The notes under the pieces are model-generated. The model made no database searches, was not told where the DNA came from, and worked only from the letters and a program-made list of their open reading frames with translations. A program made the position numbers and the translations under genes. Shown here one piece after another: positions 1,112 to 37,420 of a stretch of 37,420 nt of DNA (within the stretch, counting starts at the first letter, position 1; every line of letters starts with the position of its first letter). Origin of the DNA: an uncultured Eubacteriales bacterium (GTDB taxonomy: Bacteria; Bacillota; Clostridia; Saccharofermentanales; Saccharofermentanaceae); the NCBI GenBank assembly GCA_900317035.1, contig ONFC01000002.1:1-37420 (forward strand). Reading direction: 5' to 3'.

Positions 1112-1119
1112 AAAAGCAC
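1112..1119 (+). repeat. dispersed 8-base word AAAAGCAC (intergenic copy)
   Basis: One of 19 copies of AAAAGCAC/GTGCTTTT counted in the window. This one lies 13 bases after the fabH stop codon, outside any gene, so codon use cannot explain it. The full list is given in the findings. Confidence 0.6.
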
Positions 1120-1151
1120 CCGCAGGTTTTTATGAGTGCGTGAATAGAAAA

Positions 1152-1169
1152 GCCGCGGACCCACGCGGC
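1152..1169 (+). other. hairpin between fabH and fabK
   Basis: GCCGCG and CGCGGC form a perfect 6-bp GC-only stem around a 6-base loop, ending a few bases before the fabK ribosome binding site (AAGGAG at 1173-1178). No T-run follows, so it is not a standard terminator. It may affect mRNA stability or fabK translation, which is inference. Confidence 0.45.
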
Positions 1170-1186
1170 ATTAAGGAGATCATGAA

Positions 1187-2116
1187 ATGAGAACGAGACT
1201 TACAGAACTTCTGAACATCGAATACCCGATCATGCAGGGCGGCATGGCCTGGGTCGCAGATTACCATCTCGCGGCTGCAGTAAGTAATGCCGGTGGCCTG
1301 GGTATCATCGGTTCCGGCGGAGCGGATGCGGACTGGGTAAGAAACCAGGTCAAGTGCTGCCGTGAACTGACAGACAAGCCTTTCGGCGTAAATGTTATGC
1401 TGATGAACCCGCATGCTCCGGAGATCGCAGATGTCCTGGCAGAAGAGAAAGTCGCAGTAATCACCACCGGAGCCGGTTCTCCGGAAAGATATCTTAAGAA
1501 GTGGCAGGAAGCCGGCATCAAGATCATTCCGGTCGTTGCTTCTGTCGGTCTTGCAAAGAGAATGGAAAAGCTCGGCGTCGACGCAGTTGTTGCCGAGGGT
1601 ACCGAGTCCGGCGGACATATCGGTGAACTGACCACCATGACACTGGTACCGCAGGTCGTGGATGCGCTCTCCATTCCGGTCGTTGCCGCAGGCGGTATCG
1701 CAGACGGAAGAGGAATCGCGGCAGCATTCATGCTGGGCGCTGAGGGCGTACAGTGCGGCACCTGCTTCATCCCATGCGAAGAGACGAATATTCATCAGAA
1801 CTATAAGGACCTTGTCATTAAGGCCAGCGACATCGATACCAAGGTCACGGGAAGATCGACCGGCCATCCGGTAAGAACGATCAGAAACCAGCTGACCAAG
1901 CTCTATCTGAAGATGGAAGCGGACGGCGCGACTCTGGATGAGCTCGAGCAGCTCTCCCTCGGATCCCTGCGAAAAGCTGTCCTCGATGGTGACAAGGACA
2001 TGGGCTCCTTCATGGCGGGCCAGATCTCCGGTCTCCTGAAAGAACAGGTAACAGTAAAAGAAAGAATCGTATCCATGATGGATCAGGCAGAATCACTCTT
2101 AGGAGGTAAAAAGTAA
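1187..2116 (+). CDS. fabK: enoyl-ACP reductase II (FMN-dependent)
   Basis: FabK performs the last reduction of each elongation cycle using FMN and NAD(P)H. It replaces FabI in many Firmicutes and is insensitive to triclosan. The 309-residue protein shows the nitronate-monooxygenase-like TIM barrel signature: MQGGMAW at 16-22, GGLGIIG at 36-42, the catalytic-region His144 in ESGGHIGE, and the FMN phosphate-binding AAGGIADG near 167-174. ATG at 1187 follows AAGGAG. The stop codon overlaps the fabD start by one base (TAATG), indicating translational coupling. No fabI is visible, so this is likely the main enoyl reductase of the operon. Confidence 0.96.
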   Translation: MRTRLTELLNIEYPIMQGGMAWVADYHLAAAVSNAGGLGIIGSGGADADWVRNQVKCCRELTDKPFGVNVMLMNPHAPEIADVLAEEKVAVITTGAGSPERYLKKWQEAGIKIIPVVASVGLAKRMEKLGVDAVVAEGTESGGHIGELTTMTLVPQVVDALSIPVVAAGGIADGRGIAAAFMLGAEGVQCGTCFIPCEETNIHQNYKDLVIKASDIDTKVTGRSTGHPVRTIRNQLTKLYLKMEADGATLDELEQLSLGSLRKAVLDGDKDMGSFMAGQISGLLKEQVTVKERIVSMMDQAESLLGGKK

Positions 2117-3051
2117 TGAAAATCGCATTTATGTACCAGGGCCAGGGCGCCCAGAAAAACGGAATGATGCAGGATTTCTACGAGCAGTGTGCAGAGGCAA
2201 GAGACCTTTTTAACAAGGCTTCCTCGATCAGCGGCTACGATATTCCGGATCTTTGCTTCCACGAAAAGGAAGAGCTGAACCAGACCAAGTACACACAGGT
2301 CTGCCTTCTGACAGCATGCATGGCAGCGACAGAAACTCTCCGTGCAGAGGGTGTCGAGCCGGATGCAACATGTGGTCTTTCTCTTGGAGAATATACAGCA
2401 CTGGTAGCTTCCGGTGCCATGTCTTTTGAAGATGCGATCAAGCTTGTCACTGAAAGAGGCAAGATCATGGAAGAAGCAGCTCCGGATATCGGCGGCATGA
2501 GCGCTGTCATTGGCATGGGTGAAGAAGATCTCCGTGCTGCGATCGAGGGCATCGACGGCGTGTATGTCGCAAACTTCAACTGCCCCGGCCAGATCGTTAT
2601 CACCGGATATAAAGAAGCTGTTGAGAAAGCAGGCGAAGTCCTGAAAGAAAAGGGCGCGAAGAGAGTTATTCCGCTGAAGTGCAGCGGCCCGTTCCACTCC
2701 CCGATCATGAAGCCGGCCGGTGAGAAGCTCCGCTCCTACATCGATGAAGTTGAGTTTTCTGATCTGAAGGTTCCGTACGCGGCAAACCTCACCGGCGATC
2801 TCGTCAGTGATTCTAAAGAGATCCCGGAACTTCTTGAAAAACAGGTCAGCGGATCTGTCCGTATGCAGCAGGATATCGAAGCTCTGGCTAAATCCGGCGT
2901 CGATACATTTATCGAGATCGGACCGGGTAAGACTATCTCCGGTTTTGAAAAGAAGACACTGTCTGACGTAGAGATCTTAAACGTCGAGACACTCGAAGAT
3001 GTAAAGGCTGTAGCTGCACGCATCAAGGAAAAGGCGGAGGAACAGGCATGA
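2116..3051 (+). CDS. fabD: malonyl-CoA:ACP transacylase
   Basis: FabD transfers malonyl groups from CoA to acyl carrier protein. The 311-residue protein has QGQGAQ at 8-13, the nucleophile Ser89 in GLSLGEY and His194 in GPFHSPIM. The elbow reads GLSLGE instead of the more common GHSLGE, a variant I regard as normal in Clostridia. AGGAGG at 2101-2106 precedes the ATG, which overlaps the fabK stop by one base. The 3' end overlaps fabG by the ATGA motif. The usual neighbour acpP is absent from this operon. Confidence 0.97.
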   Translation: MKIAFMYQGQGAQKNGMMQDFYEQCAEARDLFNKASSISGYDIPDLCFHEKEELNQTKYTQVCLLTACMAATETLRAEGVEPDATCGLSLGEYTALVASGAMSFEDAIKLVTERGKIMEEAAPDIGGMSAVIGMGEEDLRAAIEGIDGVYVANFNCPGQIVITGYKEAVEKAGEVLKEKGAKRVIPLKCSGPFHSPIMKPAGEKLRSYIDEVEFSDLKVPYAANLTGDLVSDSKEIPELLEKQVSGSVRMQQDIEALAKSGVDTFIEIGPGKTISGFEKKTLSDVEILNVETLEDVKAVAARIKEKAEEQA

Positions 3052-3854: not shown

Positions 3855-5090
3855 ATGAGAAGAGTTGTAGTAACAGGAATGGGTGCGGTCACACCGCTGG
3901 GTAACACCGTCGAGGAATTCTGGTCGAATATCAAGGCCGGCAAAGTCGGTATCGGACCGATCACGAAGTTCGATGTAACGGACTACAGAGCCAAGGTCGC
4001 CGGTGAAGTAAAGGACTTCAAGGCAGATGAATACATGGACTTTAAGACGGCCAAGAGAATGGAGCTTTTCTCCCAGTATGCGGCAGCTTCCGCTCTGATG
4101 GCTGTTAAGGATTCCGGCATCGATATCGAGAAGGAAGATGCTTACCGCTGTGGCGTTATCGTCGGTTCCGGCGTCGGTTCCATGCAGGCGACCGAGCGTG
4201 AACACAAGAGACTTCTGGACTTCGGACCGAACAAGATCGGACCTCTCTATATTCCTCTCATGATCTCCAATATGGCAGCAGGTAACATCGCGATCGTTAC
4301 CGGCTTCAAGGGTAAGAATATCGATGTTGTTACCGCGTGTGCTTCCGGTACGAACTCCATCGGTGAGGCATACAGAAGCATCCAGCACAATGAGGCGGAT
4401 GTGATCCTTGCCGGCGGTACTGAGGCGGCGATCTGCCCGATGGGCGTTGCCGGTTTCTGTGCGCTAAAAGCACTTTCCTTCAACGAGGATCCGATGAAGG
4501 CGTCGATCCCGTTTGATAAGAATAGAGATGGCTTCGTTCTCGGTGAGGGCGCAGGCGTTCTCGTTCTCGAAGAGTATGAGCACGCGAAGGCCAGAGGTGC
4601 GAAGATCTATGCCGAGATGGTCGGCTACGGCGCTTCCTGCGATGCATATCACATCACATCTCCGGAGGAGTCCGGTATCGGTGCGGCGCATGCCATGATG
4701 GCAGCGATCGCAGATGCAGGCATCGAGCCTTCTGAGATCGACTATATCAACGCTCATGGCACATCCACCCACCACAATGACCTCTTCGAGACCCGTGCGA
4801 TCAAGACAGCGCTCGGAGATAGTGCGAAGGATGTAAAGATCAATTCCACCAAGTCCATGACCGGACACCTTCTCGGTGCAGCCGGTGCAATCGAGGCGAT
4901 CGTTCTTGCGAAGTCCGTTCAGGAAGGCTTTATCCACCAGACCATGGGCTCTTCTGAGACCGAGGATGAGATGGATCTGAACTACTGCTTTGGCAGATCC
5001 TATGAGCAGGATGTAAAATATGCGATGAGCAACTCGCTCGGTTTTGGCGGACACAATGCTTCCATCATCATGAAGCATTTCGAAGAGTAA
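3855..5090 (+). CDS. fabF: 3-oxoacyl-ACP synthase II (KAS II)
   Basis: FabF carries out the elongating condensations with malonyl-ACP. The 411-residue protein has the elongating-KAS triad Cys162 (TACASGTNS), His301 (NAHGTSTHHND) and His338 (MTGHLLGAAGA), and the C-terminal GFGGHNAS loop. AAGGAAGGTAAAG precedes the ATG. A copy of the AAAAGCAC word falls at 4466-4473 in an Ala-Leu-Lys-Ala-Leu stretch, where Lys is AAA although the gene mostly uses AAG. FabB is not seen. Confidence 0.97.
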   Translation: MRRVVVTGMGAVTPLGNTVEEFWSNIKAGKVGIGPITKFDVTDYRAKVAGEVKDFKADEYMDFKTAKRMELFSQYAAASALMAVKDSGIDIEKEDAYRCGVIVGSGVGSMQATEREHKRLLDFGPNKIGPLYIPLMISNMAAGNIAIVTGFKGKNIDVVTACASGTNSIGEAYRSIQHNEADVILAGGTEAAICPMGVAGFCALKALSFNEDPMKASIPFDKNRDGFVLGEGAGVLVLEEYEHAKARGAKIYAEMVGYGASCDAYHITSPEESGIGAAHAMMAAIADAGIEPSEIDYINAHGTSTHHNDLFETRAIKTALGDSAKDVKINSTKSMTGHLLGAAGAIEAIVLAKSVQEGFIHQTMGSSETEDEMDLNYCFGRSYEQDVKYAMSNSLGFGGHNASIIMKHFEE

Positions 5091-5105: not shown

Positions 5106-5549
5106 ATGGCAAAAGCACTTACCACAAGAGAGATCATGGATATTCTTCCGCATCGTTCCCCGTTCTTACTGGTGGATGCGATCGAGGATTATAAAGAAGG
5201 AGAGTATGCCATCGGCAGAAAATGCATCACCTACGATGAGCCTTATTTCCAGGGCCATTTCCCGGAGATGCCGATCATGCCCGGTGTCCTTCAGGTGGAA
5301 GCGCTTGCACAGACCGGTGCGGTCGCGATCCTCTGCAAGGAAGAGTTCAAAGGCCGCATCGCAGTGTTTGCCGGCATCGATAAGTGTAAGTTCAAGCGTC
5401 CGGTAGTTCCGGGTGATGTCCTTACACTGAAGACAGAGATCACAGCTCTTCGTGGTCCGGTCGGTATGGGTCATGGCGTGGCATCTGTCGGTGATGAAGT
5501 GGCATGTGACTGCATCATCAAGTTTGCGATCCTGCCGAACAAAGAGTGA
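5106..5549 (+). CDS. fabZ: 3-hydroxyacyl-ACP dehydratase
   Basis: FabZ dehydrates 3-hydroxyacyl-ACP in a hotdog fold. The 147-residue protein shows LPHRSPFLLVD at 14-24, the catalytic His51 in QGHFPEMPIMPG and Glu65 in VEALAQ. It is the last gene of the operon, 15 bases after fabF and about 70 bases before a strong terminator. The AAAAGCAC word occupies codons 3-5 (5111-5118). The acetyl-CoA carboxylase genes that often flank fabZ in Firmicutes are not here. Confidence 0.96.
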   Translation: MAKALTTREIMDILPHRSPFLLVDAIEDYKEGEYAIGRKCITYDEPYFQGHFPEMPIMPGVLQVEALAQTGAVAILCKEEFKGRIAVFAGIDKCKFKRPVVPGDVLTLKTEITALRGPVGMGHGVASVGDEVACDCIIKFAILPNKE

Positions 5550-11189: not shown

Positions 11190-11197
11190 AAAAGCAC
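11190..11197 (+). repeat. dispersed 8-base word AAAAGCAC (intergenic copy)
   Basis: This copy lies 11 bases beyond the stop codon of the AraC-type gene, reading GTGCTTTT in that gene's direction. A second, inverted copy lies 91 bases away inside the gene (11289-11296). Confidence 0.6.
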
Positions 11198-11208: not shown

Positions 11209-12381
11209 TCAATACTCGTCTTCGAAATCGAAATCGGATCCTGTCGTAAAGACCGAGTGCGGTATCGGATGAGAGTCCGGATGGGTCAGTGCTTTTGCCT
11301 CCGGGAAATCCGGATCGGGGATCTGACGGGGAATGCCGTGAGATACTTCGGAAGCAGCATCAGAGGAACCTTCCGGGGAGGATTCCGATCCTTGGGATGG
11401 AAGTTCAGAAGGTAAAGCAGCACGAGAGGCTTTATTGGCCTGCTGCGTCTGGCGGTACTCCGAAGGTGTCATGCCGGTGGCATTTCTGAAGCTTCTCGTA
11501 AAACTGGTCAGGTTGTTAAAACCGGTCTGAAAAGCGATCTCTGTAACTGTTGATGAAGTATCCGTCAGAAGGATCCTTGCCGCCTGCATCCTACGGTGCA
11601 TGAGATAGTCCGCAAAAGTAACATCCGTGTAGTCCTTGAAAAGACGTGAGAAATGATACTTCGAAAATCCGGCAAAATCGGCAGCCCATTCGAGTGTGAT
11701 TTCCTCCATGTAGTGCGAGTTGATATGGTTAATGAGAGATCTGAACTTCTCGTACTTGCTCTTTGTCTTATCATCTTCCGTGCGGATCGGGGCAAACTGG
11801 GGATTGATCGATGCGAGCAGGCTGAATATCTCGAGAAGCTTGGCATAGATCGGCATCTCCAGGACCATATTCGTGTACATGAAGTACTGGTCATTGATCG
11901 ACATAAAGGCAGAGTATATCTTTCCATACACCTGCGTAAACGCCGCCTCGCTGATCACGCGCGGTTCGCTGAAGAATTCTGTAAGGAAAGAAAACTCATA
12001 GAGATCCTTAATAAAGTCGATGGCGAAGAGATAGATAAAACGGCACCCTTCGTTCTGGCACTCGATCTCGTGGAGCATTCCCGGCGGCATAAAGAGGATA
12101 TCGCCCGGGGTGATCACATAGCTCTTACCGTTCGCGATATATTTATATTCATTCTCGATCGGGATACAGATTTCCAGGACATTGTGCTTGTGCTGGGAAT
12201 AGTTTCCGAACTGGTTGTTATACCAGATACGCATATTCGTATCCGGGACAAGGTCGACATCCTCATCTTCGCCGTGAAGCACGCGCTTACTGAAGCTACG
12301 GACCGGCTGGCTGTAGATCAGGGGAGTGGAACCATCATATTCGGAGTGTAATCCGTGGTTTTTCAGTATATCTTCATTCAT
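11209..12381 (-). CDS. AraC-family transcriptional regulator with C-terminal extension
   Basis: The 390-residue protein has a cupin-like sensing domain at about 60-150 (HKHNVLEICIP, PGDILFMPPGMLHEI) and a double helix-turn-helix AraC domain at about 212-310 (ITLEWAADFAGFSKYHFSRLFK and TVTEIAFQTGFNNLTSFTRSF). It converges on the sugar transporter, which it probably regulates (inference from position). Residues 311-390 are an unusual Ser/Pro-rich tail ending FDFEDEY. No ribosome binding site precedes the ATG; an extended -10 box lies so close that the transcript may be leaderless. Confidence 0.93.
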   Translation of the reverse strand: MNEDILKNHGLHSEYDGSTPLIYSQPVRSFSKRVLHGEDEDVDLVPDTNMRIWYNNQFGNYSQHKHNVLEICIPIENEYKYIANGKSYVITPGDILFMPPGMLHEIECQNEGCRFIYLFAIDFIKDLYEFSFLTEFFSEPRVISEAAFTQVYGKIYSAFMSINDQYFMYTNMVLEMPIYAKLLEIFSLLASINPQFAPIRTEDDKTKSKYEKFRSLINHINSHYMEEITLEWAADFAGFSKYHFSRLFKDYTDVTFADYLMHRRMQAARILLTDTSSTVTEIAFQTGFNNLTSFTRSFRNATGMTPSEYRQTQQANKASRAALPSELPSQGSESSPEGSSDAASEVSHGIPRQIPDPDFPEAKALTHPDSHPIPHSVFTTGSDFDFEDEY

Positions 12382-12441: not shown

Positions 12442-13422
12442 TCACTCAAAGTCAGGGATGAAGCTCTCGGAGACAGTACCGCCTTCCTGAATAAAGGCAT
12501 TCTCCTGCCCCAGGAGGGCAAGGTGATCGACCATGGCACGGTAGTGCTCCGGCGGAAGCGGCCGGGAAAGCTCGGAAGGAACACCCGGCATCGGAGTATA
12601 CTGGTTCATCAGGCTGATCGTGATGCGGTTGCCGTACGTCTCACAGAGATAGTCCAGGACATGCTTGCTGTCGAAGAGCATACCCGGGAGCATGAGATGA
12701 CGGACGATGACACCTTTTTTCATAAGACCTTTTTCATCAAAGACCTGCTTCGGACACTGGCGGACCATCTCGGTGATAGCTTCTTTCGCATGTTCAAAAT
12801 AGTCCGGGGCGTGCGAGTACTTCGCACTGATCTTCCCGGAGAAGTACTTCATATCCGGAAGGTAGATGTCGATCGTTCCTTCAAGTGAACGGATCGTCTC
12901 GGCGCTCTCATAACCGCCACAGTTAAACAGAGTCGGAATGGAGAGTCCTTTTTCACGGGCAAGACGGACGCCCTCGATAATGTGCGGGACGAAATGTGTG
13001 CCGGTCACGAAGTTGATGTTGTTGGCACCCTGTGCCTGAAGATCGAGCATGGCGTCTGCAAATTCTTCTATGGAATAGACGCGGCCGGGAAGTTCGTAGG
13101 GAAAGGAAGCACATGCTCCGTCGGAAGTGCCGGAAAAGGAAGTGCCCGGATTCTTCCGGCGCGAGATCTCGTGGTTCTGGCAGAAGACACAGCCCAGACT
13201 GCATCCTGTAAAGAAGATCGTTCCTGATCCTGTGGTTCCTGAGATGCAGGGCTCTTCCCACATGTGAAGGCCGACCCTCGAGATCCGAAGCTCGGAGGTC
13301 ATCCCGCAAAACCCGGACCGGACAGTCCTGTCCACACCACAGTTTCTGGGACAAAGACGGCATTTCCGATAGGCAGAAGTGCTTTTTGAGCAGAATTCCA
13401 CGAAAAAGTAGTTCCTTTCCAT
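12442..13422 (-). CDS. PflX-like radical SAM protein (COG1313 type)
   Basis: Uncharacterised radical SAM enzyme related to pyruvate formate-lyase activating enzymes. The cluster ligands Cys74, Cys78 and Cys81 (CSLGCVFCQN) bind the 4Fe-4S/SAM centre. An N-terminal set Cys21, Cys24, Cys28 and Cys39 (CRLCPRNC) marks the PflX subgroup. VTGTHFVPHI and a TLFNCGGYE segment follow. ATG at 13422 lacks a good ribosome binding site. An alternative GTG at 13401 (residue 8) follows AAAGGA by 11 bases and may be the true start, giving 319 residues. The gene is divergent from purF and 60 bases upstream of the AraC-type gene on the same strand. The substrate is unknown. Confidence 0.9.
   Translation of the reverse strand: MERNYFFVEFCSKSTSAYRKCRLCPRNCGVDRTVRSGFCGMTSELRISRVGLHMWEEPCISGTTGSGTIFFTGCSLGCVFCQNHEISRRKNPGTSFSGTSDGACASFPYELPGRVYSIEEFADAMLDLQAQGANNINFVTGTHFVPHIIEGVRLAREKGLSIPTLFNCGGYESAETIRSLEGTIDIYLPDMKYFSGKISAKYSHAPDYFEHAKEAITEMVRQCPKQVFDEKGLMKKGVIVRHLMLPGMLFDSKHVLDYLCETYGNRITISLMNQYTPMPGVPSELSRPLPPEHYRAMVDHLALLGQENAFIQEGGTVSESFIPDFE
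13379..13386 (-). repeat. dispersed 8-base word at the start of the radical SAM gene
   Basis: GTGCTTTT on the plus strand, AAAAGCAC in the direction of the gene. It is read there as Lys-Ser-Thr, a different reading frame from the Lys-Ala-Leu copies in other genes. Confidence 0.5.
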
Positions 13423-13502: not shown

Positions 13503-14900
13503 ATGATCGGTTCCCGACATGAAGAATGCGGTGTTTTCGGTATTTTTGACAACGATGGTCTTCGGATCGCGCCGCTGGTGTATTATGGACTTTTTGCGCT
13601 ACAGCACAGAGGTCAGGAGAGCTGCGGCATCGCCATCAATAACGACGGCTGGATCCGCTGCCAGAAGAATATGGGACTGGTCAGCGAGGTCTTCACCCAT
13701 GAGATGCTTGATTCACTCGAAGGCACGATCGCCATCGGACATGTCCGCTACTCGACGACCGGGGCGAGCGTCCTCAGCAATACCCAGCCGCTGGTCACCC
13801 AGTATGTAAAAGGAACACTCTCTCTGGCGCATAACGGCAATCTTACGAATGCCATTTCCCTTAGAAAAGCACTGGAAGAGGAAGGTGCATTTTTCCAGAC
13901 AACGGTGGACTCGGAGATCATTGCATATCTTGTTGCGAAAGAAAGAACGCGTACACCTTCTGTCGAAACTGCGGTAGAAGAAACGATGAAGCAGATCCAG
14001 GGTGGCTATGCGCTTCTGGTCATGAGCCCGAAGAAGCTGATCGCCGCGAGAGATCCATATGGCTTTAAGCCGCTTTGTATGGGGAAAATCGGCAACTCCT
14101 ATGTGTTCGCATCCGAGACATGCGCACTTGATGCGGTCGGTGCGAAGTACGAGCGGGACGTCGAGCCGGGCGAGATCATCGTGTGCGATGAAAACGGCAT
14201 CCGCTCGATCCGCACACACTGCAGCGGCATCTGTAAGATGTGCATCTTCGAATATATCTACTTTGCCCGTCCGGACAGCCGGATCGATGGAAAGAGTGTC
14301 TATGAAGCGCGTCTTCAGGCAGGAAGACTCCTTTGCCGGCAGCATCCGGTCGATGCGGATGTGGTCATCGGAGTACCGGAATCGGGACTTGACGCGGCCA
14401 GCGGTTTTGCCGAGGAATCCGGAATCCCGGTGGCTAGAGGCTTCATGAAGAATAACTATATCGGAAGAACATTCATCAAGCCCGAGCAGGGTCAGCGGCA
14501 GGAAGCCGTACATATCAAGCTGAACCCGGTAAGAGAAGCCGTCCGCGGAAAACGAGTCGTGCTGATCGATGATTCGATCGTGCGAGGTACCACGATGGCA
14601 AATATCGTCAAGATGCTCCGCGACGCGGGAGCTACCGAAGTACATGTGCGGATCAGCTCGCCGCCGTTTATCTCACCGTGTTATTATGGTACTGATGTAC
14701 CGAGCTGTGACATGCTGATCGCATGCCAGCATACGATCCCGGAGATCTGCGGGATCCTGGGCGCCGATTCCCTCGGATATCTCGAGGTGAGCTCGCTCGG
14801 CGACCTGATCGGCGACACGGAGCATGCTTTCTGCGATGCGTGCTTCACGGGAAATTATCCGAACGAAGAGACCGGCATCGACATGATGAAGGAGAACTGA
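13503..14900 (+). CDS. purF: amidophosphoribosyltransferase, Fe-S type
   Basis: PurF makes phosphoribosylamine from PRPP and glutamine, the committed step of purine synthesis. ATG 13503 (465 residues) is chosen for AAGGAAGG upstream and because it leaves an 8-residue propeptide before the glutaminase nucleophile Cys9 (EECGVFGIF), as in the Bacillus enzyme. The PRPP loop VLIDDSIVRGTT is at 353-364. The four cluster ligands of the Bacillus-type 4Fe-4S enzyme are present: Cys247, Cys393 (SPCYYGTD), Cys444 and Cys447 (CDACFTG). No other pur gene is adjacent; the next gene starts 1 base after the stop. Confidence 0.96.
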   Translation: MIGSRHEECGVFGIFDNDGLRIAPLVYYGLFALQHRGQESCGIAINNDGWIRCQKNMGLVSEVFTHEMLDSLEGTIAIGHVRYSTTGASVLSNTQPLVTQYVKGTLSLAHNGNLTNAISLRKALEEEGAFFQTTVDSEIIAYLVAKERTRTPSVETAVEETMKQIQGGYALLVMSPKKLIAARDPYGFKPLCMGKIGNSYVFASETCALDAVGAKYERDVEPGEIIVCDENGIRSIRTHCSGICKMCIFEYIYFARPDSRIDGKSVYEARLQAGRLLCRQHPVDADVVIGVPESGLDAASGFAEESGIPVARGFMKNNYIGRTFIKPEQGQRQEAVHIKLNPVREAVRGKRVVLIDDSIVRGTTMANIVKMLRDAGATEVHVRISSPPFISPCYYGTDVPSCDMLIACQHTIPEICGILGADSLGYLEVSSLGDLIGDTEHAFCDACFTGNYPNEETGIDMMKEN

Positions 14901-19824: not shown

Positions 19825-20232
19825 ATGGCTAAGAAAGCTACTAAAGTTTACTTCTATGGCACAGGTCGTCGTAAGAATGCTGTAGCATGCGTACGTCTTC
19901 TTCCTGGCACAGGTAAGATCACCATCAACGACAAAGATATGGACGATTACTTCGGTCTCGAGACTCTGAAGCTCATCGTTCGTCAGCCGCTCGTAGCAAC
20001 AGCTACAGAAGGCAAGTTCGATATCATCTGCAAGGCAATCGGCGGCGGTATTTCCGGTCAGGCCGGTGCGATCCGTCACGGTATCTCCCGTGCTCTGGTT
20101 CAGGCAGATGAAGAAGCTTACAAGGCAATTCTTAAGAAGGCCGGTTTCCTCACACGTGACGCACGTATGAAGGAAAGAAAGAAGCCGGGTCTCAAGAAAG
20201 CCCGTAAGGCATCCCAGTTCAGTAAGCGTTAA
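19825..20232 (+). CDS. rpsI: 30S ribosomal protein S9
   Basis: S9 has 135 residues with [50 protein letters not shown] and the conserved C-terminal SQFSKR, whose last Arg contacts the P-site tRNA. GGGAGGA precedes the ATG, 20 bases after rplM. Confidence 0.98.
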
Positions 20233-20274: not shown

Positions 20275-20282
20275 GTGCTTTT
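20275..20282 (+). repeat. dispersed 8-base word GTGCTTTT (intergenic copy)
   Basis: Located 43 bases after the rpsI stop and 5 bases before the terminator stem, in non-coding sequence. Confidence 0.6.
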
Positions 20283-22834: not shown

Positions 22835-22892
22835 AAAAAAGAAATGATGAAAAAATGAAATAAGGACCGGAAAATAAGGAGGTAAATGAACT

Positions 22893-25415: not shown

Positions 25416-25515
25416 AGACGGATTTTTGGCACAATAGTGGCAGAAAAAGCGGGCGGCGCGGGAAGCGGACAAGTTGCCGGAAAAAGTCCCGCGGTGCCTT
25501 AGGAAGAGGAACTGC

Positions 25516-26916
25516 ATGATCATCTATAACGCAGAAATATATACGATGGAAGGGAAAGATCCGATCCGCGACGGGTATGTGGTCTTTGACAGAAAGAAGA
25601 TCCTGGAGATCGGATCCGGTGACGGCTGGCAGGCCTTTATGGAGAAGATGGGAAAAGAAGACCCGAATCTCTATGTGCGCCGTGATTTTGCCGAGAATGA
25701 CGAACGGACGGAACTTCTGAATACTATCGATGCGAAGGGAGCAAGACTCTACCCCGGATTTATCGATGCACACTCGCATCTGGGACTTTTCGATGACGGC
25801 CTGACGGATGAAGGCTCGGACGGAAACGAGATCGTATCGCCGATCTCCCCGGATCTTCGCGCAATCGACGGCATCCATAATGCGGATCCGTGCTTCCTGG
25901 AAGCAAGAGAAGCGGGTGTGACGATGGTCGCGGCGGGCCCGGGTTCTGCCAATATCGTCGGCGGACAGTTCGCGCTGATCAAGACCTACGAAAAGACGGT
26001 CGACCGTGCACTCGTCGATCCGTATATCGCCATGAAGGCAGCGCTCGGTGAGAATCCGAAGATGTGCTACGGCAAGGAGAATAAGGCTCCGCAGACCCGT
26101 ATGGGTAATGCGGCGCTTCTTCGCGGTGTGCTCACGGAAGCCATCGAATACTACGAGAAGAAGAAACAGTCCGATGAAAAGTGGGCGGAATATAACGAAG
26201 CGGTCGAAGCAGGGAAGAAAGAATCTGCGAAGACCGGCAAGTCAGATGCGGATAAAGAGGATAAGCCGGAGCGCCCGGATGTCTTCGAAAAGGATATGGA
26301 GCTGGAGGCGATGATCCCAGTGATCCTCGGAGAAAAGCCCCTGAAGATCCATGCGCACAGGCAGGACGATATCCTGACCGCGATCCGCATCGCCAATGAG
26401 TTCTGCCTGAAATATACACTCGATCACTGCACGGAGGGACACCTCATCTCGGATGTCCTGAAAGAAGAATTTGATGCCGGATGCGGTGAAAACCGAGGCA
26501 TGGGCATCCTTTCGGATCCGGGAAAGCCGTCCGGCGGCAGGCTCCTCGGCGTGATCGTCGGACCGGTCATCGGCGAGCGGAGCAAGCCGGAACTTCGGAA
26601 TATGCAGCTCTCGACTGCGGGAGATCTCTATAAGGCGGGCCTTCCGGTCGCGATCATGACGGATCATCCGGAGATCCCGGAACAGTATCTGCCGCTGTCG
26701 GCAGCTCTTGCAAAGAAAGGCGGCATGCCGGAAACTGCAGCCATTCAGGCGATCACAGTATCCGCGGCAAAAGTGCTCGGCGTGGATGACCGTTACGGCA
26801 CGATCACGGCGGGAAAAGCACCGGATCTGGTACTTCTTGACGGTGATCCGCTGAAACTTGAAAGTGAAGTTGTACTCGTGGTCGGCTCCGGCCGGATCGT
26901 GGTGGATAGAAGGTAG
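25516..26916 (+). CDS. amidohydrolase, imidazolonepropionase-like
   Basis: A metal-dependent amidohydrolase of 466 residues from ATG 25516 (AGGAAGAGGA just upstream). The first metal-binding motif is DAHSHLG with His86 and His88. Later ligands are probably in KIHAHRQDD and TLDHCTEGHLI, and MTDHPEIPEQ near 385. The C-terminus AGKAPDLVLLDGDPLKLE is typical of the superfamily. A Lys/Glu-rich charged insertion lies at about 215-260. Substrate unknown: related proteins act on imidazolone, dipeptides and other cyclic amides. The tsaE gene starts 5 bases after the stop, so it may share that transcript. Confidence 0.88.
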   Translation: MIIYNAEIYTMEGKDPIRDGYVVFDRKKILEIGSGDGWQAFMEKMGKEDPNLYVRRDFAENDERTELLNTIDAKGARLYPGFIDAHSHLGLFDDGLTDEGSDGNEIVSPISPDLRAIDGIHNADPCFLEAREAGVTMVAAGPGSANIVGGQFALIKTYEKTVDRALVDPYIAMKAALGENPKMCYGKENKAPQTRMGNAALLRGVLTEAIEYYEKKKQSDEKWAEYNEAVEAGKKESAKTGKSDADKEDKPERPDVFEKDMELEAMIPVILGEKPLKIHAHRQDDILTAIRIANEFCLKYTLDHCTEGHLISDVLKEEFDAGCGENRGMGILSDPGKPSGGRLLGVIVGPVIGERSKPELRNMQLSTAGDLYKAGLPVAIMTDHPEIPEQYLPLSAALAKKGGMPETAAIQAITVSAAKVLGVDDRYGTITAGKAPDLVLLDGDPLKLESEVVLVVGSGRIVVDRR

Positions 26917-28290: not shown

Positions 28291-28740
28291 ATGAATCTGG
28301 TATTTGAAACGGCGAAGAAGGATGATCTTCATGAGATCCATGAGATCGAGATCGCATCATTCCCGGACCCGTGGAGCGTGGACTCGCTGTGGGCATTTGC
28401 CTCTAATGAACAGGTGAGAACGCTCGTGTGCGCAAGAGAAAAAGAGAGCAGGGAACTGGTCGGCTACTATGCGCTGCAGTACGTGCTGGATGAGGCAGAG
28501 ATCGCGATCATCGCAGTAAAGCGGAAGTTCAGAAGACAGGGACTGGGAACGAAGCTTCTTCAGGAGATAAGTGCTTTTGCCAAGGAGCGGGGGATCAGCA
28601 AGATCCATCTTGAAGTAAGATCCGAAAACGAGGCGGCGGTCCACCTGTACCGGAGCTTCGGATTCGAGGAAGTCGGGCGCCGGAAAAATTACTACGAGGC
28701 GCCGAAAGATGACGCGATCCTGTTCACTCTTTCTATTTGA
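28291..28740 (+). CDS. rimI: ribosomal protein S18-alanine N-acetyltransferase RimI
   Basis: GNAT acetyltransferase of 149 residues with the acetyl-CoA loop RRQGLGTKLL at 81-90, LEVRSENEAAVHLY near 110-123 and the terminal GRRKNYYEAPKDDA typical of RimI. It follows tsaB, the common tsaE-tsaB-rimI order of Firmicutes. The target in this organism is inferred from family membership. A GTGCTTTT copy is at 28571-28578. Confidence 0.92.
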   Translation: MNLVFETAKKDDLHEIHEIEIASFPDPWSVDSLWAFASNEQVRTLVCAREKESRELVGYYALQYVLDEAEIAIIAVKRKFRRQGLGTKLLQEISAFAKERGISKIHLEVRSENEAAVHLYRSFGFEEVGRRKNYYEAPKDDAILFTLSI

Positions 28741-29199: not shown

Positions 29200-31064
29200 G
29201 TGGTGATCCTGCTTCCAAATTCGACGCAAGATTAGATATAGTACCTACGGATCCGGGAGTGTACCTGATGAAGGACGCCTCGGATTCTGTCATTTATGTG
29301 GGAAAAGCGAAGAATCTTAGAAACCGTCTCCGCTCCTACTTCGGCAAGAACCCGCAGGGAAATGCGAAAGTTCTTGCGATGATCTCCCATGTGGCCGACT
29401 TCGAATATGTGGTCGTCGGCTCCGAACTCGAAGCACTCCTTCTCGAGTGTAATCTCATTAAGCGGTATCAGCCCCACTACAATATCCTCCTTCGCGATGA
29501 CAAGGGATTTCCCTATGTCTGCATTACGATGCAGGAGGAATATCCGCGCATCATGAAGGTCTTCCGCCCCGATAAGAATATGACCGGCGCGAAGTATTAC
29601 GGACCTTTCCTCGGAGGAGACCTTTACCGTGCGCTCCAGGCGCTCCGCGACATCTTCCCGACGAAGACCTGCCGGAAAGTCCTTCCACGGGATATCGGGA
29701 AAGAGCGCGCCTGCCTCAATTACCATATCGGACGATGTGTCGGTCCCTGCCGCGGCGATGTTTCCGCGGAAGAATACCGGAAGGTCATGGAAAATATGTG
29801 CCGTTTCTTCGAGGGAAAATATGACGGCATCCTCCGTGATCTGGAAGCGCAGATGCAGGAGGCATCGGAGAATCTCGATTTCGAGAAAGCGGCGGTCTAT
29901 CGCGACCGGTTAAATGCGCTTCGTGCCGTCATGGCGAATCAGAATGTATCTTTCCCGCGCGAGTCGGATCGTGACGCCGTGGGCTTTTTCCGCGATGCGG
30001 GCGAAATGTGTTTTAGAAAACTGGAACTTCGTGAAGGCCGTATCATCGGTTCTTCCACCTATTTTCTGAAGGATGAGGGAGAGACGGAAGACAGTCTCCT
30101 CGAAGCCTTCCTGATGCAGTATTACCCGACAGCGGCGGAGATCCCGAAAGAGATCCTCGTGTCGATCGATCTCGAGGATCACGACACCGTCGAGCAGGCG
30201 ATCTGCGACATGGCCGGACATAAGGTCTCTGTCCATGTTCCGCAGAGAGGCGATGGCGCGCGGCTCCTGGAGATGGCAAATGCAAATGCGAAAGAAGCGC
30301 TGCGCCGGAGGATCCTCCGGGTAGGCACCTCTCAGCAGAGCGTCGAGACGGCACTGGGACTTCTCCGCGATAAGCTCGCGCTTCGGGATATTCCGCAGCG
30401 AATCGAATCCTACGATATCAGTAACCTCGGAAACGACGACCGCTGCGGCGGTATGGTGGTCTTTACGGACGGCCGCCCGGACAAGCAGGCATACCGTCTC
30501 TTCAAGATCAAGACGGTCGAAGGGCAGGATGACTACGCGTCGATGAGAGAGGTTCTGCTTCGACGGTTCTCGCATACAGGGGATGAGAAGTTCGCCAAGA
30601 TGCCGGACCTGATCCTCGCGGACGGCGGCCTCGGACAGGTGCACGCGATCTACAGTGTTCTCGAGGAACTCGGCCTTCAGGATAAGGTACAGCTGGCCGG
30701 TATGGTCAAGGACCGCCGCCATAGAACGCACGGCCTCGTGAAACTTGACGGGGAGACGATCGATCTGGCAGAGGACGCCAGGGAAGACGAAGACATGATG
30801 GTGCTTTTCCGTCTGATCACGGGAATCCAGAATGAGGTGCACCGCTTCGCGATCACCTATCAGCGAAAGCTCAGCAAGAAGAGAAACCTCACCTATTCGC
30901 TCGAGACGATCCCGGGAATAGGTACCGCCAAGCGAAAAGCACTGATGAAGCACTTCGGTTCGATCAAGGCGATCTCCAAGGCTTCAAAAGAACAGCTCAT
31001 GGAGGCAGAACGAATATCGGAAAAGGATGCGGACGCGATCATCGCGCACTTCCAGCAGGAGTGA
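29196..31064 (+). CDS. uvrC: excinuclease ABC subunit C
   Basis: UvrC makes both incisions in nucleotide excision repair. The 622-residue protein has the GIY-YIG domain (PGVYLMKDASDSVIYVGKAKNLRNR at about 20-44), the Cys cluster CLNYHIGRCVGPC, a UVR helix pair at about 208-245, the RNase H-like nuclease with SYDISN, VFTDGRPDK, LILADGG and HRTHG, and C-terminal HhH motifs (IPGIGTAKRKALMKHFGS). All expected catalytic acids are visible. Its start overlaps the Crh-like gene's stop (ATGA). Two signal-word copies lie in the 3' end and a third just after the stop. Confidence 0.97.
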   Translation: MSGDPASKFDARLDIVPTDPGVYLMKDASDSVIYVGKAKNLRNRLRSYFGKNPQGNAKVLAMISHVADFEYVVVGSELEALLLECNLIKRYQPHYNILLRDDKGFPYVCITMQEEYPRIMKVFRPDKNMTGAKYYGPFLGGDLYRALQALRDIFPTKTCRKVLPRDIGKERACLNYHIGRCVGPCRGDVSAEEYRKVMENMCRFFEGKYDGILRDLEAQMQEASENLDFEKAAVYRDRLNALRAVMANQNVSFPRESDRDAVGFFRDAGEMCFRKLELREGRIIGSSTYFLKDEGETEDSLLEAFLMQYYPTAAEIPKEILVSIDLEDHDTVEQAICDMAGHKVSVHVPQRGDGARLLEMANANAKEALRRRILRVGTSQQSVETALGLLRDKLALRDIPQRIESYDISNLGNDDRCGGMVVFTDGRPDKQAYRLFKIKTVEGQDDYASMREVLLRRFSHTGDEKFAKMPDLILADGGLGQVHAIYSVLEELGLQDKVQLAGMVKDRRHRTHGLVKLDGETIDLAEDAREDEDMMVLFRLITGIQNEVHRFAITYQRKLSKKRNLTYSLETIPGIGTAKRKALMKHFGSIKAISKASKEQLMEAERISEKDADAIIAHFQQE

Positions 31065-31067
31065 GAG

Positions 31068-31075
31068 GTGCTTTT
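31068..31075 (+). repeat. dispersed 8-base word GTGCTTTT (intergenic copy)
   Basis: Begins 4 bases after the uvrC stop codon. It is the third of three copies spaced 134 and 133 bases apart (30801, 30935, 31068), in alternating orientation. Confidence 0.6.
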
Positions 31076-33852: not shown

Positions 33853-34293
33853 ATGTTAGTAGATCCGTCAGTTGAAGAATTGTTACCAAAGGCCGAGTGT
33901 CGCTATTCGCTCTGCATGCTGGTAGCGAAGCGTGCCCGTCAGCTCGTTGATGGTGCGCAGCCGATGGTAGACGATCCGACACCGAGCTATGTTACCCTTG
34001 CCTGCAAGGAAATAGCCGCAGATAAGGTCGTAGGTGTGGAAGGACAGCATACTCCATATGTACCGCTCCGTCCGGAGATCGAGGAAGCACGCCGTCTTGC
34101 AAAAGAAGCTGCTGAGAATCAGGCCCGCATGGATGCAGAAGGTGAAGGCGCAGAGGCTGGTGAAGCTCCTGCTGCTACTGAGTCCTCTGAGACAGACGCA
34201 GCTGCTTCTGAGTCATTCGTAGAAGAGACAGAGTCCTTCGTAGACGTTGTGGAAGAGATCGAAGAATCTGATGATTCAGAGGAGGATTCCTGA
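33853..34293 (+). CDS. rpoZ: RNA polymerase omega subunit with acidic C-terminal extension
   Basis: The first ~85 residues match omega: [16 protein letters not shown] at 16-31, then the conserved [16 protein letters not shown]. Omega in Firmicutes is typically about 65-90 residues, whereas this one has 146. Residues ~88-146 are Glu/Ala/Ser/Asp-rich with one Arg and no Lys, ending [20 protein letters not shown] precedes the ATG. The stop overlaps the glyS start (TGATG). Confidence 0.9.
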
Positions 34294-35726
34294 TGCCTGC
34301 GAAAAAGTCAATGGAAAAGATCGTAGCCCTCGCGAAAACAAGAGGTTTCGTATATCCGGGCTCCGATATCTATGGTGGTCTGGCAAACGCATGGGACTTC
34401 GGTCCTCTGGGTGTCCAGCTCAAGAATAACGTAAAAGCTGCATGGTGGAAGAAGTTCGTACAGGAGAGCCCGTATAACGTAGGCGTTGACTGCGCGATCC
34501 TCATGAACCCGCAGGTCTGGGTTGCTTCCGGTCACGTTGGCGGTTTCTCCGATCCGCTCATCGACTGCAAGCAGTGCAAGGCCCGTGCCCGTGCTGATAA
34601 ACTGGTCGAAGATTTTAACGCCGAGAACGGCATCACTGATGTTGTTGTCGAGGGCATGAACGACGAGGAACTCGTTGCTTATATCAAGGAGAAGAACATC
34701 CCGTGCCCGACATGCGGCGGCCATAACTTTACCGATGTCAGAAAATTCAACCTGATGTTCAAGACATTCATGGGTGTTACGGAAGATAGCAAGAGTGAAG
34801 TATATCTCCGTCCGGAGACCGCGCAGGGTATCTTCGTAAACTTCCTGAACGTCCAGCGCTCTGCAAGAAAAAAGATTCCGTTCGGTATCTGCCAGATCGG
34901 TAAGAGCTTCAGAAACGAGATCACACCGGGTAACTTCATCTTCAGAACACGTGAGTTCGAGCAGATGGAGCTCGAGTTCTTCTGCGAGCCAGGAACTGAC
35001 CTCGAGTGGTTCAAATACTGGAAAGAGTACTGCTACAACTGGCTTACAGGTCTCGGCCTGAAGGAAGATGAACTCAGAACAAGAGATCACGATCCAAAAG
35101 AACTTGCCTTCTATTCGAATGCGACCACAGACTTCGAGTTCTGGTTCCCCTTCAAGGAAGAGGGCGAATGGGGCGAGCTCTGGGGCGTTGCTGATAGAAC
35201 AGACTACGATCTCAAGCAGCACATGGAGTTCTCTAAGCAGGATCTGTCCTACTTCGATCCGGCAAAGAATGAGAAGTACATCCCGTACGTTATCGAGCCG
35301 TCGCTCGGTGCGGACCGTGTCACTCTCGCATTCCTCTGCTCCGCATATGACGAAGAAAAGATCGTCGATGGCGACAAAGAGGATGTCCGTACTGTTATGC
35401 ACTTCCATCCGTTCCTTGCTCCAATCAAGATCGGTATCCTCCCGCTGTCTGCAAAACTCAGTGAGAAAGCTGAGCCGATCTTCGCAGAACTTTCCAAGAA
35501 GTATATGTGCGAGTTCGATGACAGACAGTCCATCGGTAAGCGCTACAGAAGACAGGACGAGATCGGTACTCCGTACTGTGTCGTTTATGACTTTGACTCC
35601 GAGAATGATAACTGCGTCACGATCCGTGAGCGTGATTCCATGAAGAATGTCGAGTACGAGCCGGGCAACATCCGTTTCCCGATCGAAAAGCTCGGTGAGT
35701 TCTTCGAAGGCAAGTTCGATTTCTGA
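34293..35726 (+). CDS. glyS: glycyl-tRNA synthetase, single-chain (alpha2) type
   Basis: Class II synthetase of 477 residues of the bacterial/archaeal/eukaryal alpha2 type rather than the GlyQ/GlyS heterotetramer. [11 protein letters not shown] begins the catalytic domain. Zn-binding-like Cys pairs are CKQC (~97) and CPTC (~138). Motif 2 is [21 protein letters not shown], motif 3 [14 protein letters not shown], and the anticodon-binding end reads [15 protein letters not shown]. The start is fused to the rpoZ stop (TGATG). No T-box is present, consistent with its position inside an operon. Confidence 0.97.
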
Positions 35727-35745
35727 TAAAGAAGTCGGACGAAGA

Positions 35746-35771: not shown

Positions 35772-35791
35772 CAGAATAATTAGGTTTTTAG

Positions 35792-35799
35792 GTGCTTTT
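35792..35799 (+). repeat. dispersed 8-base word GTGCTTTT (intergenic copy)
   Basis: Lies between the glyS 3' hairpin and the ppdK promoter, in non-coding sequence. Confidence 0.6.
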
Positions 35800-35811
35800 C
35801 GAGACTCCCAC

Positions 35812-35841
35812 TTGAAAAACACCGTAAAAATAGAGTATGAA
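35812..35841 (+). promoter_or_regulatory. possible ppdK promoter
   Basis: TTGAAA at 35812-35817 and TATGAA at 35836-35841 with an 18-base spacer. It is moderate in quality and placed about 30 bases before the ppdK start. Confidence 0.45.
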
Positions 35842-35872
35842 GTAAGATATATTAAGAAAGGCGGGCTAAACA

Positions 35873-37420
35873 ATGACTAAATATGTTTACTTGTTTTCTG
35901 AGGGCAACGGCAACATGCGTGAGCTCCTCGGCGGTAAGGGCGCAAACCTTGCTGAGATGACCAACCTGGGACTTCCTGTTCCGCAGGGATTTACGATCAC
36001 CACAGAGGCTTGTACCAAGTATTATGAAGACGGACGTCAGATCAATGACGAGATCTTCGCTCAGATCCTTGAGTACATCGGAAAAATGGAGGAGATCACC
36101 GGTAAGAAGTTCGGTGACCTGGAGAACCCGCTCCTCGTTTCTGTCCGTTCCGGTGCGAGAGCTTCCATGCCGGGTATGATGGATACCATCTTAAACCTCG
36201 GTCTCAATGAGGAAGTTGTTAACGTAATCGCAGAAAAGTCCAATAACCCGCGCTGGGCTTGGGACTGCTACAGAAGATTTATCCAGATGTACTCCGACGT
36301 CGTAATGGAAGTTGGTAAGAAGTACTTCGAAGAACTCATCGATAAGATGAAGGCAGAAAAGGGCGTGAAGCAGGACGTTGAGCTCTCCGCTGATGACCTC
36401 AAGGAACTGGCGAACCAGTTCAAGGCCGAGTATAAGGCAAAGATCGGTTCCGACTTCCCGACAGATCCGAAGGAACAGCTCATGGGCGCAATCAAAGCCG
36501 TATTCCGTTCCTGGGACAACCCGCGTGCCAATGTTTACCGTCGTGACAACGATATCCCGTATTCCTGGGGTACAGCTGTTAACGTACAGTCCATGGCTTT
36601 CGGTAACATGGGTGACGATTGCGGTACCGGTGTTGCTTTCACACGTGACCCGGCAACAGGTAACAAGGGTCTCTTCGGTGAGTTCCTGACAAACGCTCAG
36701 GGCGAGGACGTTGTTGCAGGCGTTCGTACTCCGATGAAGATCGCCGAGATGCAGGAGAAGTTCCCGGAGGCATTCAAGCAGTTCACTGAAGTATGCTCCA
36801 TCCTCGAGAAGCACTACCGTGACATGCAGGATATGGAGTTCACGGTTGAGCACGGTAAGCTCTACATGCTCCAGACAAGAAACGGTAAGAGAACCGCTCA
36901 GGCTGCTCTGAAGATCGCATGTGACCTCGTTGATGAGGGCATGAGAACAGAAGCAGAAGCTGTTGCGATGATCGATCCTCGTAACCTCGATACACTCCTT
37001 CACCCGCAGTTCGATGCAAAAGCACTGAAGGACGCAACTCCGATCGCTCAGGCACTGGGTGCTTCCCCGGGTGCTGCATGCGGCCAGATCGTATTTACGG
37101 CTGAAGATGCAAAGGCTTGGAAGGCGGAAGGAAAGAAAGTCGTTCTCGTACGTCTCGAGACCTCTCCGGAGGACATCGAAGGCATGAAAGCTTCCCAGGG
37201 TATCCTCACCGTGGGTACCTGCTGCGTATCCGGCTGCTCCGATATCAACATGGACGAAGCAAACAAGAAGTTCACACTCGCAGGTAAGGAATATCACGAA
37301 GGTGATGAGATCTCCATCGATGGTTCCACAGGTAAGATCTATGACGGTATCATCCCGACAGTAGATGCTACTATCGCAGGTGAGTTCGGCCGCATCATGG
37401 CTTGGGCGGATAAGTACAGA
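35873..37420 (+). CDS. ppdK: pyruvate phosphate dikinase, partial at window end, lacking the phosphohistidine loop
   Basis: PPDK interconverts pyruvate, ATP and phosphate with PEP, AMP and pyrophosphate through a phosphohistidine carrier domain. The first 516 codons are in the window. The nucleotide-binding domain is intact: GGKGANLAEM, SVRSGARASMPGMMDT, FRSWDNPRA, FTRDPATG, and MEFTVEHGKLYMLQTRNGKRTA. In the carrier domain, EDIEGMKASQGILTV (to residue 447) is followed directly by GTCCVSGCSDI. Homologues such as the Clostridium symbiosum enzyme have RGGMTSHAAVVARGM between these, with catalytic His455. Exactly 15 residues are therefore missing, in frame (junction near 37213/37214). It may be an inactive or altered enzyme, or a sequence error. 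AAAGG precedes the ATG. Confidence 0.93.
   Translation, partial: MTKYVYLFSEGNGNMRELLGGKGANLAEMTNLGLPVPQGFTITTEACTKYYEDGRQINDEIFAQILEYIGKMEEITGKKFGDLENPLLVSVRSGARASMPGMMDTILNLGLNEEVVNVIAEKSNNPRWAWDCYRRFIQMYSDVVMEVGKKYFEELIDKMKAEKGVKQDVELSADDLKELANQFKAEYKAKIGSDFPTDPKEQLMGAIKAVFRSWDNPRANVYRRDNDIPYSWGTAVNVQSMAFGNMGDDCGTGVAFTRDPATGNKGLFGEFLTNAQGEDVVAGVRTPMKIAEMQEKFPEAFKQFTEVCSILEKHYRDMQDMEFTVEHGKLYMLQTRNGKRTAQAALKIACDLVDEGMRTEAEAVAMIDPRNLDTLLHPQFDAKALKDATPIAQALGASPGAACGQIVFTAEDAKAWKAEGKKVVLVRLETSPEDIEGMKASQGILTVGTCCVSGCSDINMDEANKKFTLAGKEYHEGDEISIDGSTGKIYDGIIPTVDATIAGEFGRIMAWADKYR

Follow-up and report, generated by a model that had tools for sequence, protein, structure and literature searches.

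The 8-base word GTGCTTTT recurs throughout the genomes of a single genus of Clostridia, here called g1, and its 9-base form AGTGCTTTT, together with a weaker 3′ flank, is probably a DNA uptake sequence. The window analysed is a stretch of 37,420 bp (contig ONFC01000002.1) of an uncultured Eubacteriales bacterium of the family Saccharofermentanaceae; within the draft genome G000 (2,566,507 bases in 234 contigs, 94% complete) it is contig 149. The frequency of the word is independent of codon use and base composition, and high counts of it are confined to one genus. Tests of its distribution and evolution that are informative on mechanism show the word behaving like an uptake sequence; formal membership of that class is withheld.

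The first-pass annotation of the window had counted 19 copies, eight reading AAAAGCAC and 11 reading GTGCTTTT on the plus strand. A recount gives the same copies at the same positions, with a purine before the word in 18 of 19 and C or G after it in 17 of 19, also as claimed. Dinucleotide shuffles of the window (n = 100) yield 0.75 copies on average and three at most. Among all 8-mers of the window the word is the most over-represented, with 19 copies versus 1.9 expected under a second-order Markov model. Five copies lie outside the main open reading frames (ORFs), in agreement with the first pass; intergenic status was judged against 34 main ORFs, picked by eye from the ORF list. All copies but one match at least five of nine lenient flank positions of the longer motif described below. 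The copies are listed with the strand on which GTGCTTTT reads and with this flank fit.

1112–1119, minus strand: intergenic, just 3′ of the fabH-like ORF 89–1099; flank fit 6 of 9.
4466–4473, minus strand: within fabF; flank fit 6 of 9.
5111–5118, minus strand: at the 5′ end of ORF 5106–5549; flank fit 9 of 9.
11190–11197, minus strand: intergenic, between convergent ORFs; flank fit 9 of 9.
11289–11296, plus strand: near the 3′ end of ORF 11209–12381 (minus); flank fit 7 of 9; forms an opposite-orientation pair with the copy at 11190, 99 bases off.
13379–13386, plus strand: at the 5′ end of ORF 12442–13422 (minus); flank fit 8 of 9; GTGCATTT in one aligned sequence of the GTGCATTT dialect.
13865–13872, minus strand: within purF; flank fit 8 of 9.
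15856–15863, plus strand: within ORF 14902–16047; flank fit 7 of 9.
16117–16124, plus strand: within ORF 16062–17252; flank fit 5 of 9.
18547–18554, plus strand: within ORF 18040–19179; flank fit 3 of 9, the weakest of all.
20275–20282, plus strand: intergenic, 3′ of ORF 19825–20232; flank fit 7 of 9; GTGCATTT in two aligned sequences of the GTGCATTT dialect.
25027–25034, plus strand: within ORF 22893–25316; flank fit 8 of 9.
26814–26821, minus strand: within ORF 25474–26916; flank fit 7 of 9.
28571–28578, plus strand: within ORF 28291–28740; flank fit 8 of 9.
30801–30808, plus strand: within uvrC; flank fit 5 of 9.
30935–30942, minus strand: within uvrC; flank fit 8 of 9.
31068–31075, plus strand: intergenic, immediately 3′ of the uvrC stop; flank fit 7 of 9; GTGCATTT in two aligned sequences of the GTGCATTT dialect.
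35792–35799, plus strand: intergenic, 3′ of glyS (end 35726); flank fit 6 of 9.
37018–37025, minus strand: within ORF 36191–37297 (minus); flank fit 7 of 9.

The recurrence about every 2 kb claimed for the window extends to the whole draft, where 1,313 copies (669 + 644) amount to one per 1.95 kb; the reversed word, used as control, occurs 100 times (64 + 36). The corresponding counts for the 9-mer AGTGCTTTT are 871 and 35. For finer analyses, the G000 sample consisted of the window and 20 further stretches (311,564 bases), to which two more stretches were added for later counts. In the 311,564 bases, the best single word includes the core whether words of 8, 9, 10 or 11 bases are considered, and AGTGCTTTT occurs 111 times versus 4.5 expected under a third-order Markov model. 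With the two extra stretches the figures are 118 versus 5.1 (23×), and in a second genome of the genus, G105, the Markov model predicts 4.7 copies where 78 are found (16.5×).

Such a word might be supposed to stem from codon usage, from base composition or from a dispersed repeat, and the first-pass annotation had argued that codon use could not be the whole cause. With genes taken as the longest ORFs, called from sequence with no annotation, 135 genic copies are found in G000 versus 17.9 (sd 3.4, maximum 29) in 100 within-gene synonymous-codon shuffles, and 130 in G105 versus 19.5 (sd 4.5). The shuffle level is thus far exceeded in both genomes; for the reversed word, 13 copies compare with 12.2. 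Intergenic DNA, in which the first pass had proposed to look for an excess, holds 29 copies in G000 (22,325 bases) and 21 in G105 (28,931 bases); its own composition, in slightly larger sets, predicts 1.9 and 2.7. Per kilobase, intergenic and genic densities are 1.30 versus 0.47 in G000 and 0.73 versus 0.37 in G105. The codon shuffle, the intergenic and Markov excesses and the reversed-word control refute composition, codon use and repeats as the source of the word, and no point is left in their favour.

The word forms the core of a longer, asymmetric motif (about 19 bases), which both bears out and lengthens the consensus RGTGCTTTTS drawn from the window. Copies from the 16 word-rich genomes of the genus were aligned, with five further copies set aside, and the flanks are equal around 90 intergenic, 224 sense and 215 antisense copies. 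Upstream of GTGCTTTT, position −2 is A or C and position −1 is A (58–66%) or G. Downstream, the bases are mostly C/G, G/C, A/C, G (43–51%), any, A/G, G (60–64%), any and A (43–64%). No such pattern surrounds 56 copies of the reversed control word. There is little conservation past the ~19 bases, which again argues against a dispersed repeat.

The shape of the motif also bears on a second explanation, a self-marking word that resembles the cyanobacterial palindrome GGCGATCGCC, which we take to be the one named HIP1 (highly iterated palindrome), or that is linked to methylation. The palindrome is similarly abundant, with 5,648 copies in Synechocystis (PMC1939737; this and the other papers cited were available in part). 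It is, however, palindromic and carries a methyltransferase site, whereas GTGCTTTT is non-palindromic with a one-sided flank of about ten bases; methyltransferases were not searched for. The first pass had compared the word to uptake sequences or to HIP1. The former comparison fits and the latter fails on palindromy, and we consider a HIP1-like or methylation-linked role improbable.

Counts of GTGCTTTT range from 296 to 1,402 per genome in all 23 genomes of g1, versus 32–202 in the 92 other genomes of the family; the reversed word occurs 47–159 times in the 23. For AGTGCTTTT, the 23 genomes have 127–984 copies and the other 165 of the order 0–62, and in a class-wide sample of 196 genomes every genome other than G000 (871) has at most 164. 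An excess in related genomes, another of the checks put forward with the window, is therefore present in the entire genus. Sixteen of the 23 genomes are word-rich, four (G093, G094, G098 and G104) are word-poor, and three (G111, G112 and G113) carry a second dialect. No comparable word was found in stretches of sister genera (G013, 180 kb; G006, 158 kb; G002, 80 kb; G003, 53 kb; a pool of genus g5, 95 kb): the top 8-mers of these samples have G scores of at most 20, versus 76 for GTGCTTTT in a 133-kb sample of G000, and the smaller of the samples are low-powered. In 40 loci, all surrounding glyS, from relatives further removed (688 kb in total), words recur up to about once per locus; we take these to be conserved parts of glyS.

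Two members of g1 are metagenome-assembled genomes (MAGs) from water buffalo, G105 (RGIG7616) and G108 (RGIG8127); the genus is known to occur in the rumen or omasum of buffalo. The genus is not Saccharofermentans: the MAG labelled Saccharofermentans sp. RUI264 (L012) falls in the wordless genus g5, with 10 + 13 copies of AGTGCTTTT and 4 + 3 of its reverse.

The word shows no strand polarity, as the first-pass annotation had stated. Since contigs are randomly oriented, plus and minus counts over the 234 contigs say nothing on replication polarity, which was judged from gene strand and GC skew. Relative to genes, sense and antisense copies number 64 and 71 in G000 and 61 and 68 in G105. By local GC skew, the G-rich and C-rich strands carry 64 and 63 copies in G000 (21 ambiguous) and 55 and 44 in G105 (54 ambiguous); this proxy and gene strand agree for 57 of 65 G000 windows and 61 of 70 G105 windows. 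Strand-polar runs within pieces were not found (p = 0.50 in G000, 0.37 in G105).

Chi and the signals that guide FtsK or SpoIIIE are strand-polar. A word of this type would accord with the length and copy number of GTGCTTTT, which are within the range of E. coli Chi, a non-palindromic 8-base word (GCTGGTGG) present in 1,008 copies (PMC1939737). The balanced strand counts and the lack of polar runs speak against Chi and against the FtsK-orienting polar sequences (KOPS), and neither a second dialect within the genus nor a 19-base motif fits them. We regard a Chi-like or FtsK/SpoIIIE-guiding role as very improbable, and the separate tests bear out the first pass, which had ranked Chi and KOPS lower. 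Lack of polarity and of palindromy is likewise an argument made against intracellular roles of known uptake sequences (PMC1939737).

Placement relative to genes is uneven. Between divergent genes there are 12 copies in 21.7 kb, versus 71 in 69.0 kb of other intergenic DNA (0.55 versus 1.03–1.04 per kb), and between co-directional genes density peaks less than 50 bases past the stop codon (1.8 and 1.5 per kb). Spacings within 100 bases make up 15 of 145 in G000 (10.3% versus 5.2% expected) and 7 of 135 in G105 (5.2% versus 4.0%), and in 11 of the 15 G000 pairs the copies are oppositely oriented. This arrangement, together with the T4 at the end of the word, is what a transcription terminator or another RNA element would predict. 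Yet the majority of copies are genic and in both orientations equally, and the close spacings are few, so that we give an RNA element almost no credence. Terminators of Neisseria and Pasteurellaceae often contain uptake sequences (PMC1852404), and a share of terminator copies would therefore be compatible with an uptake sequence.

Six of the 15 close G000 pairs lie in one cluster of about 400 bases (L102, contig 120 of G000, ~930–1360) amid further repeated segments; it may be an array of repeats that acquired the word. Other locally repeated words, TTAGTCACC, CTTAGCAG, GGTGTAGGT and GTCTGAAT, occur in L010 (G105), L132–L136 (G098), L172–L175 (G093) and L191 (G102) and are probably local repeats.

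Word sites are retained between species. At 45 G000 sites, exact retention in word-rich relatives is 0.469 versus 0.229 for neighbouring 8-mers (Wilcoxon p = 0.003), and at 42 G105 sites 0.479 versus 0.200 (p = 0.002); the p values are indicative, because codon frame was unmatched and the genomes are related. Retention is no better than that of neighbours in the four word-poor genomes (0.186/0.250 for G000, 0.239/0.175 for G105), and not significantly so in the dialect genomes (0.289/0.190 and 0.214/0.165) or for 17 sites of the reversed control word (0.373 versus 0.278).

The second dialect differs from the first by a single base. The best distributed word in the G111 and G113 samples is AGTGCATTT, and whole-genome counts of GTGCATTT are 664 in G111, 577 in G112 and 594 in G113, versus 53–157 in the other 20 genomes of g1. 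Its flanks, in 44 classed copies, are the same, with G at +14 in 67–81%. At 25 GTGCATTT sites with an aligned word-rich orthologue, at least one relative has GTGCTTTT in 12 and none has GTGCATTT; grouped by orthology, GTGCTTTT stands in a word-rich relative at 8 of 19 places. Pairwise, 28 of 199 comparisons are swaps between the two words versus a background of 0.68% (1,347/197,719; 8-mers with A at position five that differ by A to T alone), the pairs not being independent. Conversely, when 87 GTGCTTTT sites from G000 and G105 were compared across the word-rich genomes, GTGCATTT was found at none. Three sites of the swap are in the window, at 13379, 20275 and 31068. In a tree of nine proteins the deepest branch is made up of G112 and G113; G111 stands beside G094 (support 0.72). 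From these positions the GTGCATTT dialect may be ancestral, convergent or transferred.

Another variant, GTTCTTTT, had been suggested as a third dialect for G094. Tested over whole genomes with its flanks, it proved to be a minor form shared by all 23 genomes, with between 3 and 74 copies each (the highest number in G102) versus 0–4 of the reversed pattern, and it was rejected as a dialect. A relaxed motif, GTTC/GATC/GTGC followed by TTTT, in G098 and G104 is a lead from small samples.

Conservation and dialects have to be weighed against another candidate, an intracellular protein of the chromosome: a nucleoid or repair factor peculiar to the genus that would require a site roughly every 2 kb, with selection on chromosome organisation maintaining the word. 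Such a protein would explain a genome-wide word in high copy number, an asymmetric core with a weaker flank as expected for a DNA-binding protein, and words conserved beyond their flanks. It would not explain why sites are unevenly spaced and without orientation along the chromosome, or why word-poor species and sister genera manage without high counts. In addition, if such a protein, with some 1,300 sites, changed its specificity in a few species and the sites followed singly, this could hardly be sustained unless transformation or a similar drive were at work. We consider a chromosome protein unlikely, though less so than the other alternatives.

An uptake sequence calls for uptake machinery, and competence genes, which the first pass had suggested looking for, are nearly genus-wide. 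ComEC is found in 21 of 23 genomes of g1, ComEA in 22 and DprA in 23; the genomes without ComEC (G101, G108) and without ComEA (G108) are drafts 88–89% complete. T2SSE matches occur in all 23, at full PilB strength in 22 with G113 as the exception. The pilus operon of G000 encodes PilB, PilT, PilC, PilM, PilN, a PilO-like protein and four pilins, and a prepilin peptidase gene adjoins it; PilB, PilC and PilO were named partly by place and look. Across the genus, identity to the G000 proteins is 97–99% for PilT and 93–99% for PilM, versus 44–82% for PilN, PilO and pilins 3 and 4; from the GTGCATTT genomes, pilins were recovered from G111 and G112 only. Judged from these sequences, fast divergence of PilN, PilO and pilins 3 and 4 is as would be expected of a changing surface reader.

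The structure model of pilin 3 is poor (predicted local distance difference test, pLDDT, 64.5). That of pilin 4 is fair (pLDDT 82.7) and bears a weak likeness to minor and competence pilins: the best match in the PDB is 7ba2 (E = 0.0094), none reaches E = 0.001, and the Thermus competence pilin 6qvf scores E = 0.18 at best. The C-terminus of pilin 3 (L195:9502–10020) has a cysteine pattern, C-x2-[C/H] ... C-x4-C, in most members of the genus seen, which resembles a metal-binding knuckle. Next to the operon is a 665-residue protein (L195:6237–8234) with a hydrophobic N-terminal stretch and 32–76% identity within the genus (long matches). PilN, PilO and pilins 3 and 4 of G000 (L195:8948–13030) are nearest those of G095 (78–82%), not those of the nearest species G096 and G110 (63–80%); pilus-tip genes seem to have been exchanged between species.

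The following mechanism would account for an uptake sequence of this kind. Free DNA would be bound at the motif by a surface protein of competent cells, most probably a minor type IV pilin that evolves fast. The pilus would draw the DNA in, ComEA and ComEC would pass it across the membrane, and DprA and RecA would recombine it. Word-carrying DNA of relatives would be preferentially taken up and recombined, and word-bearing alleles would spread by molecular drive. Wherever they are tolerated, words would accumulate in either orientation, and their density would be highest between genes. Where the preference of the reader shifts or widens, sites would be rewritten singly into the other dialect, giving GTGCATTT beside GTGCTTTT in three species. 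In G093, G094, G098 and G104 the word may have become rarer by decay or by relaxed preference.

Several observations weigh against an uptake sequence. The protein reader, its location at the pilus and biased uptake are all three things that we infer rather than observe. Even spacing, a hallmark of uptake sequences, is absent: in the window and stretches of up to 20 kb the coefficient of variation is 1.26 in G000 and 0.98 in G105, which looks random. Perfect copies are not in the majority, with 118 perfect 9-mers versus 227 singly mismatched (108 expected) in G000 and 78 versus 282 (114 expected) in G105. GTGCTTTT still numbers 354 in G111, 739 in G112 and 662 in G113, so the dialect switch is partial and both words are in use; from their places on the tree, moreover, the dialect species do not form one clade. 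The 9-mer counts of word-poor g1 genomes (135–233) and of G111 (127) overlap those of a few unrelated Clostridia (up to 164), and the reversed-word control is crude, being nearly absent in some wordless genomes and exceeded severalfold at low counts (120 versus 5 in G044). The word-poor species retain genes for ComEC, ComEA, DprA and T2SSE, which do not account for their low counts. Family-wide, ComEC is present in 109 of 115 genomes and T2SSE in 115 of 115, and competence genes so common outside the genus do not explain why the word is confined to it. Lastly, comEC of G000 itself (L210:11581–13585) is split into two overlapping frames of 357 and 312 amino acids, either by an assembly error or in a recently broken gene; in 19 relatives it is a single open frame of 784–829 amino acids, and in G105, near a contig end, one of 699.

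The partial dialect, the overlap of the poorest genomes with unrelated Clostridia and the literature on terminators do not favour any of the alternatives. On the other side, the word shares with uptake sequences abundance, absence of orientation bias, a preference for non-coding DNA with many genic copies, relatives that share the word and have dialects, and pilus and competence genes.

Beyond an uptake sequence as such, we lean, with less assurance, towards a broader account: a third uptake language that arose independently and is the first of its kind in Bacillota. It would have two or more dialects, which rewrite orthologous sites across the genus; its reader would be a minor pilin that evolves rapidly, and it would structure the exchange of genes in the ruminant gut. 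If true, this would be the first DNA uptake marking found in Bacillota, and a third origin in another phylum would show sequence-marked transformation to be a repeatable outcome. Clostridia should have a single membrane. Their word would then separate the essentials (word, flank, reader and drive) from accidents of outer-membrane bacteria. With its word-rich, word-poor and two-dialect genomes, the genus offers 23 species as natural replicates for testing uptake as the driver of the word, and word-tagged donor DNA would offer a practical handle for transforming intractable gut Clostridia. As text, AGTGCTTTT has no match in open-licence PubMed Central full texts; no uptake-like word is reported for Bacillota among the open-licence PubMed Central matches, mostly judged by their listing, or in the available part of PMC1590033.

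Two other features of the window stand apart from the word. The glyS protein (34293–35726) is 95–99% identical in 16 of the 18 genus members with a match, and its neighbour genes are more diverged; it was possibly spread by recombination or is merely a slow gene. Two adjoining lipoprotein-like ORFs (20426–25316) are alike by eye and have 26–46% identity in relatives except G110.

Uptake motifs are described as known in Neisseriaceae and Pasteurellaceae only (PMC12616744, available part), and these are the families in which a 2026 survey of terminators in thousands of genomes names uptake sequences (PMC13020248). The uptake signal sequences (USS) of Pasteurellaceae and the DNA uptake sequences (DUS) of Neisseriaceae have in common about one copy per kilobase, no orientation bias, a preference for non-coding DNA with many coding copies, fairly even spacing, close opposite pairs, the same word in relatives, and more perfect than singly mismatched copies (PMC1626085). 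Unlike uptake sequences, which in the available part of PMC1939737 have no bias to places downstream of genes, GTGCTTTT leans there somewhat.

Chi resembles the present word as a non-palindromic 8-base word with about 1,000 copies per genome; Chi and KOPS differ from it in that GTGCTTTT has no polarity and has a long flank and a dialect. HIP1 is similarly an abundant, lineage-restricted word, but it has a palindromic core, GCGATCGC, and no one-sided flank, and GTGCTTTT is neither a palindrome nor identical to GCGATCGC.

The USS of Pasteurellaceae (Hin-USS, AAGTGCGGT; Apl-USS, ACAAGCGGT) resemble the present word in several ways: they have a non-palindromic 9-base core in high copy number without orientation bias, are denser in non-coding DNA yet have many genic copies, have weaker conserved positions mainly on the 3′ side, and occur as two types in sub-clades. 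Their cores have AAGTGC in common with AAGTGCTTTT, probably by chance or convergence. In contrast to the USS, the present word is found in Bacillota, its core continues with TTTT, its uptake is presumed, and its flank is G/purine-rich (S S M G N R G N A) instead of two AT-rich tracts. It is also sparser, at one per 2–3 kb versus about one per kilobase in Haemophilus, its spacing is not even, and its perfect copies do not exceed the singly mismatched ones.

The DUS of Neisseriaceae, read by the minor pilin ComP, are an unrelated word; those of Neisseria have little extended flank, the reader proposed here is a putative one, and the present dialect is not one clade on the nine-protein tree. Eight DUS dialects, in line with phylogeny, have been described, and Simonsiella muelleri carries two of them at once (PMC3630211). 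As in that family, the word of g1 is lineage-restricted, its dialects differ by one base, two dialects occur in one species, and type IV pili with fast-evolving minor pilins are present.

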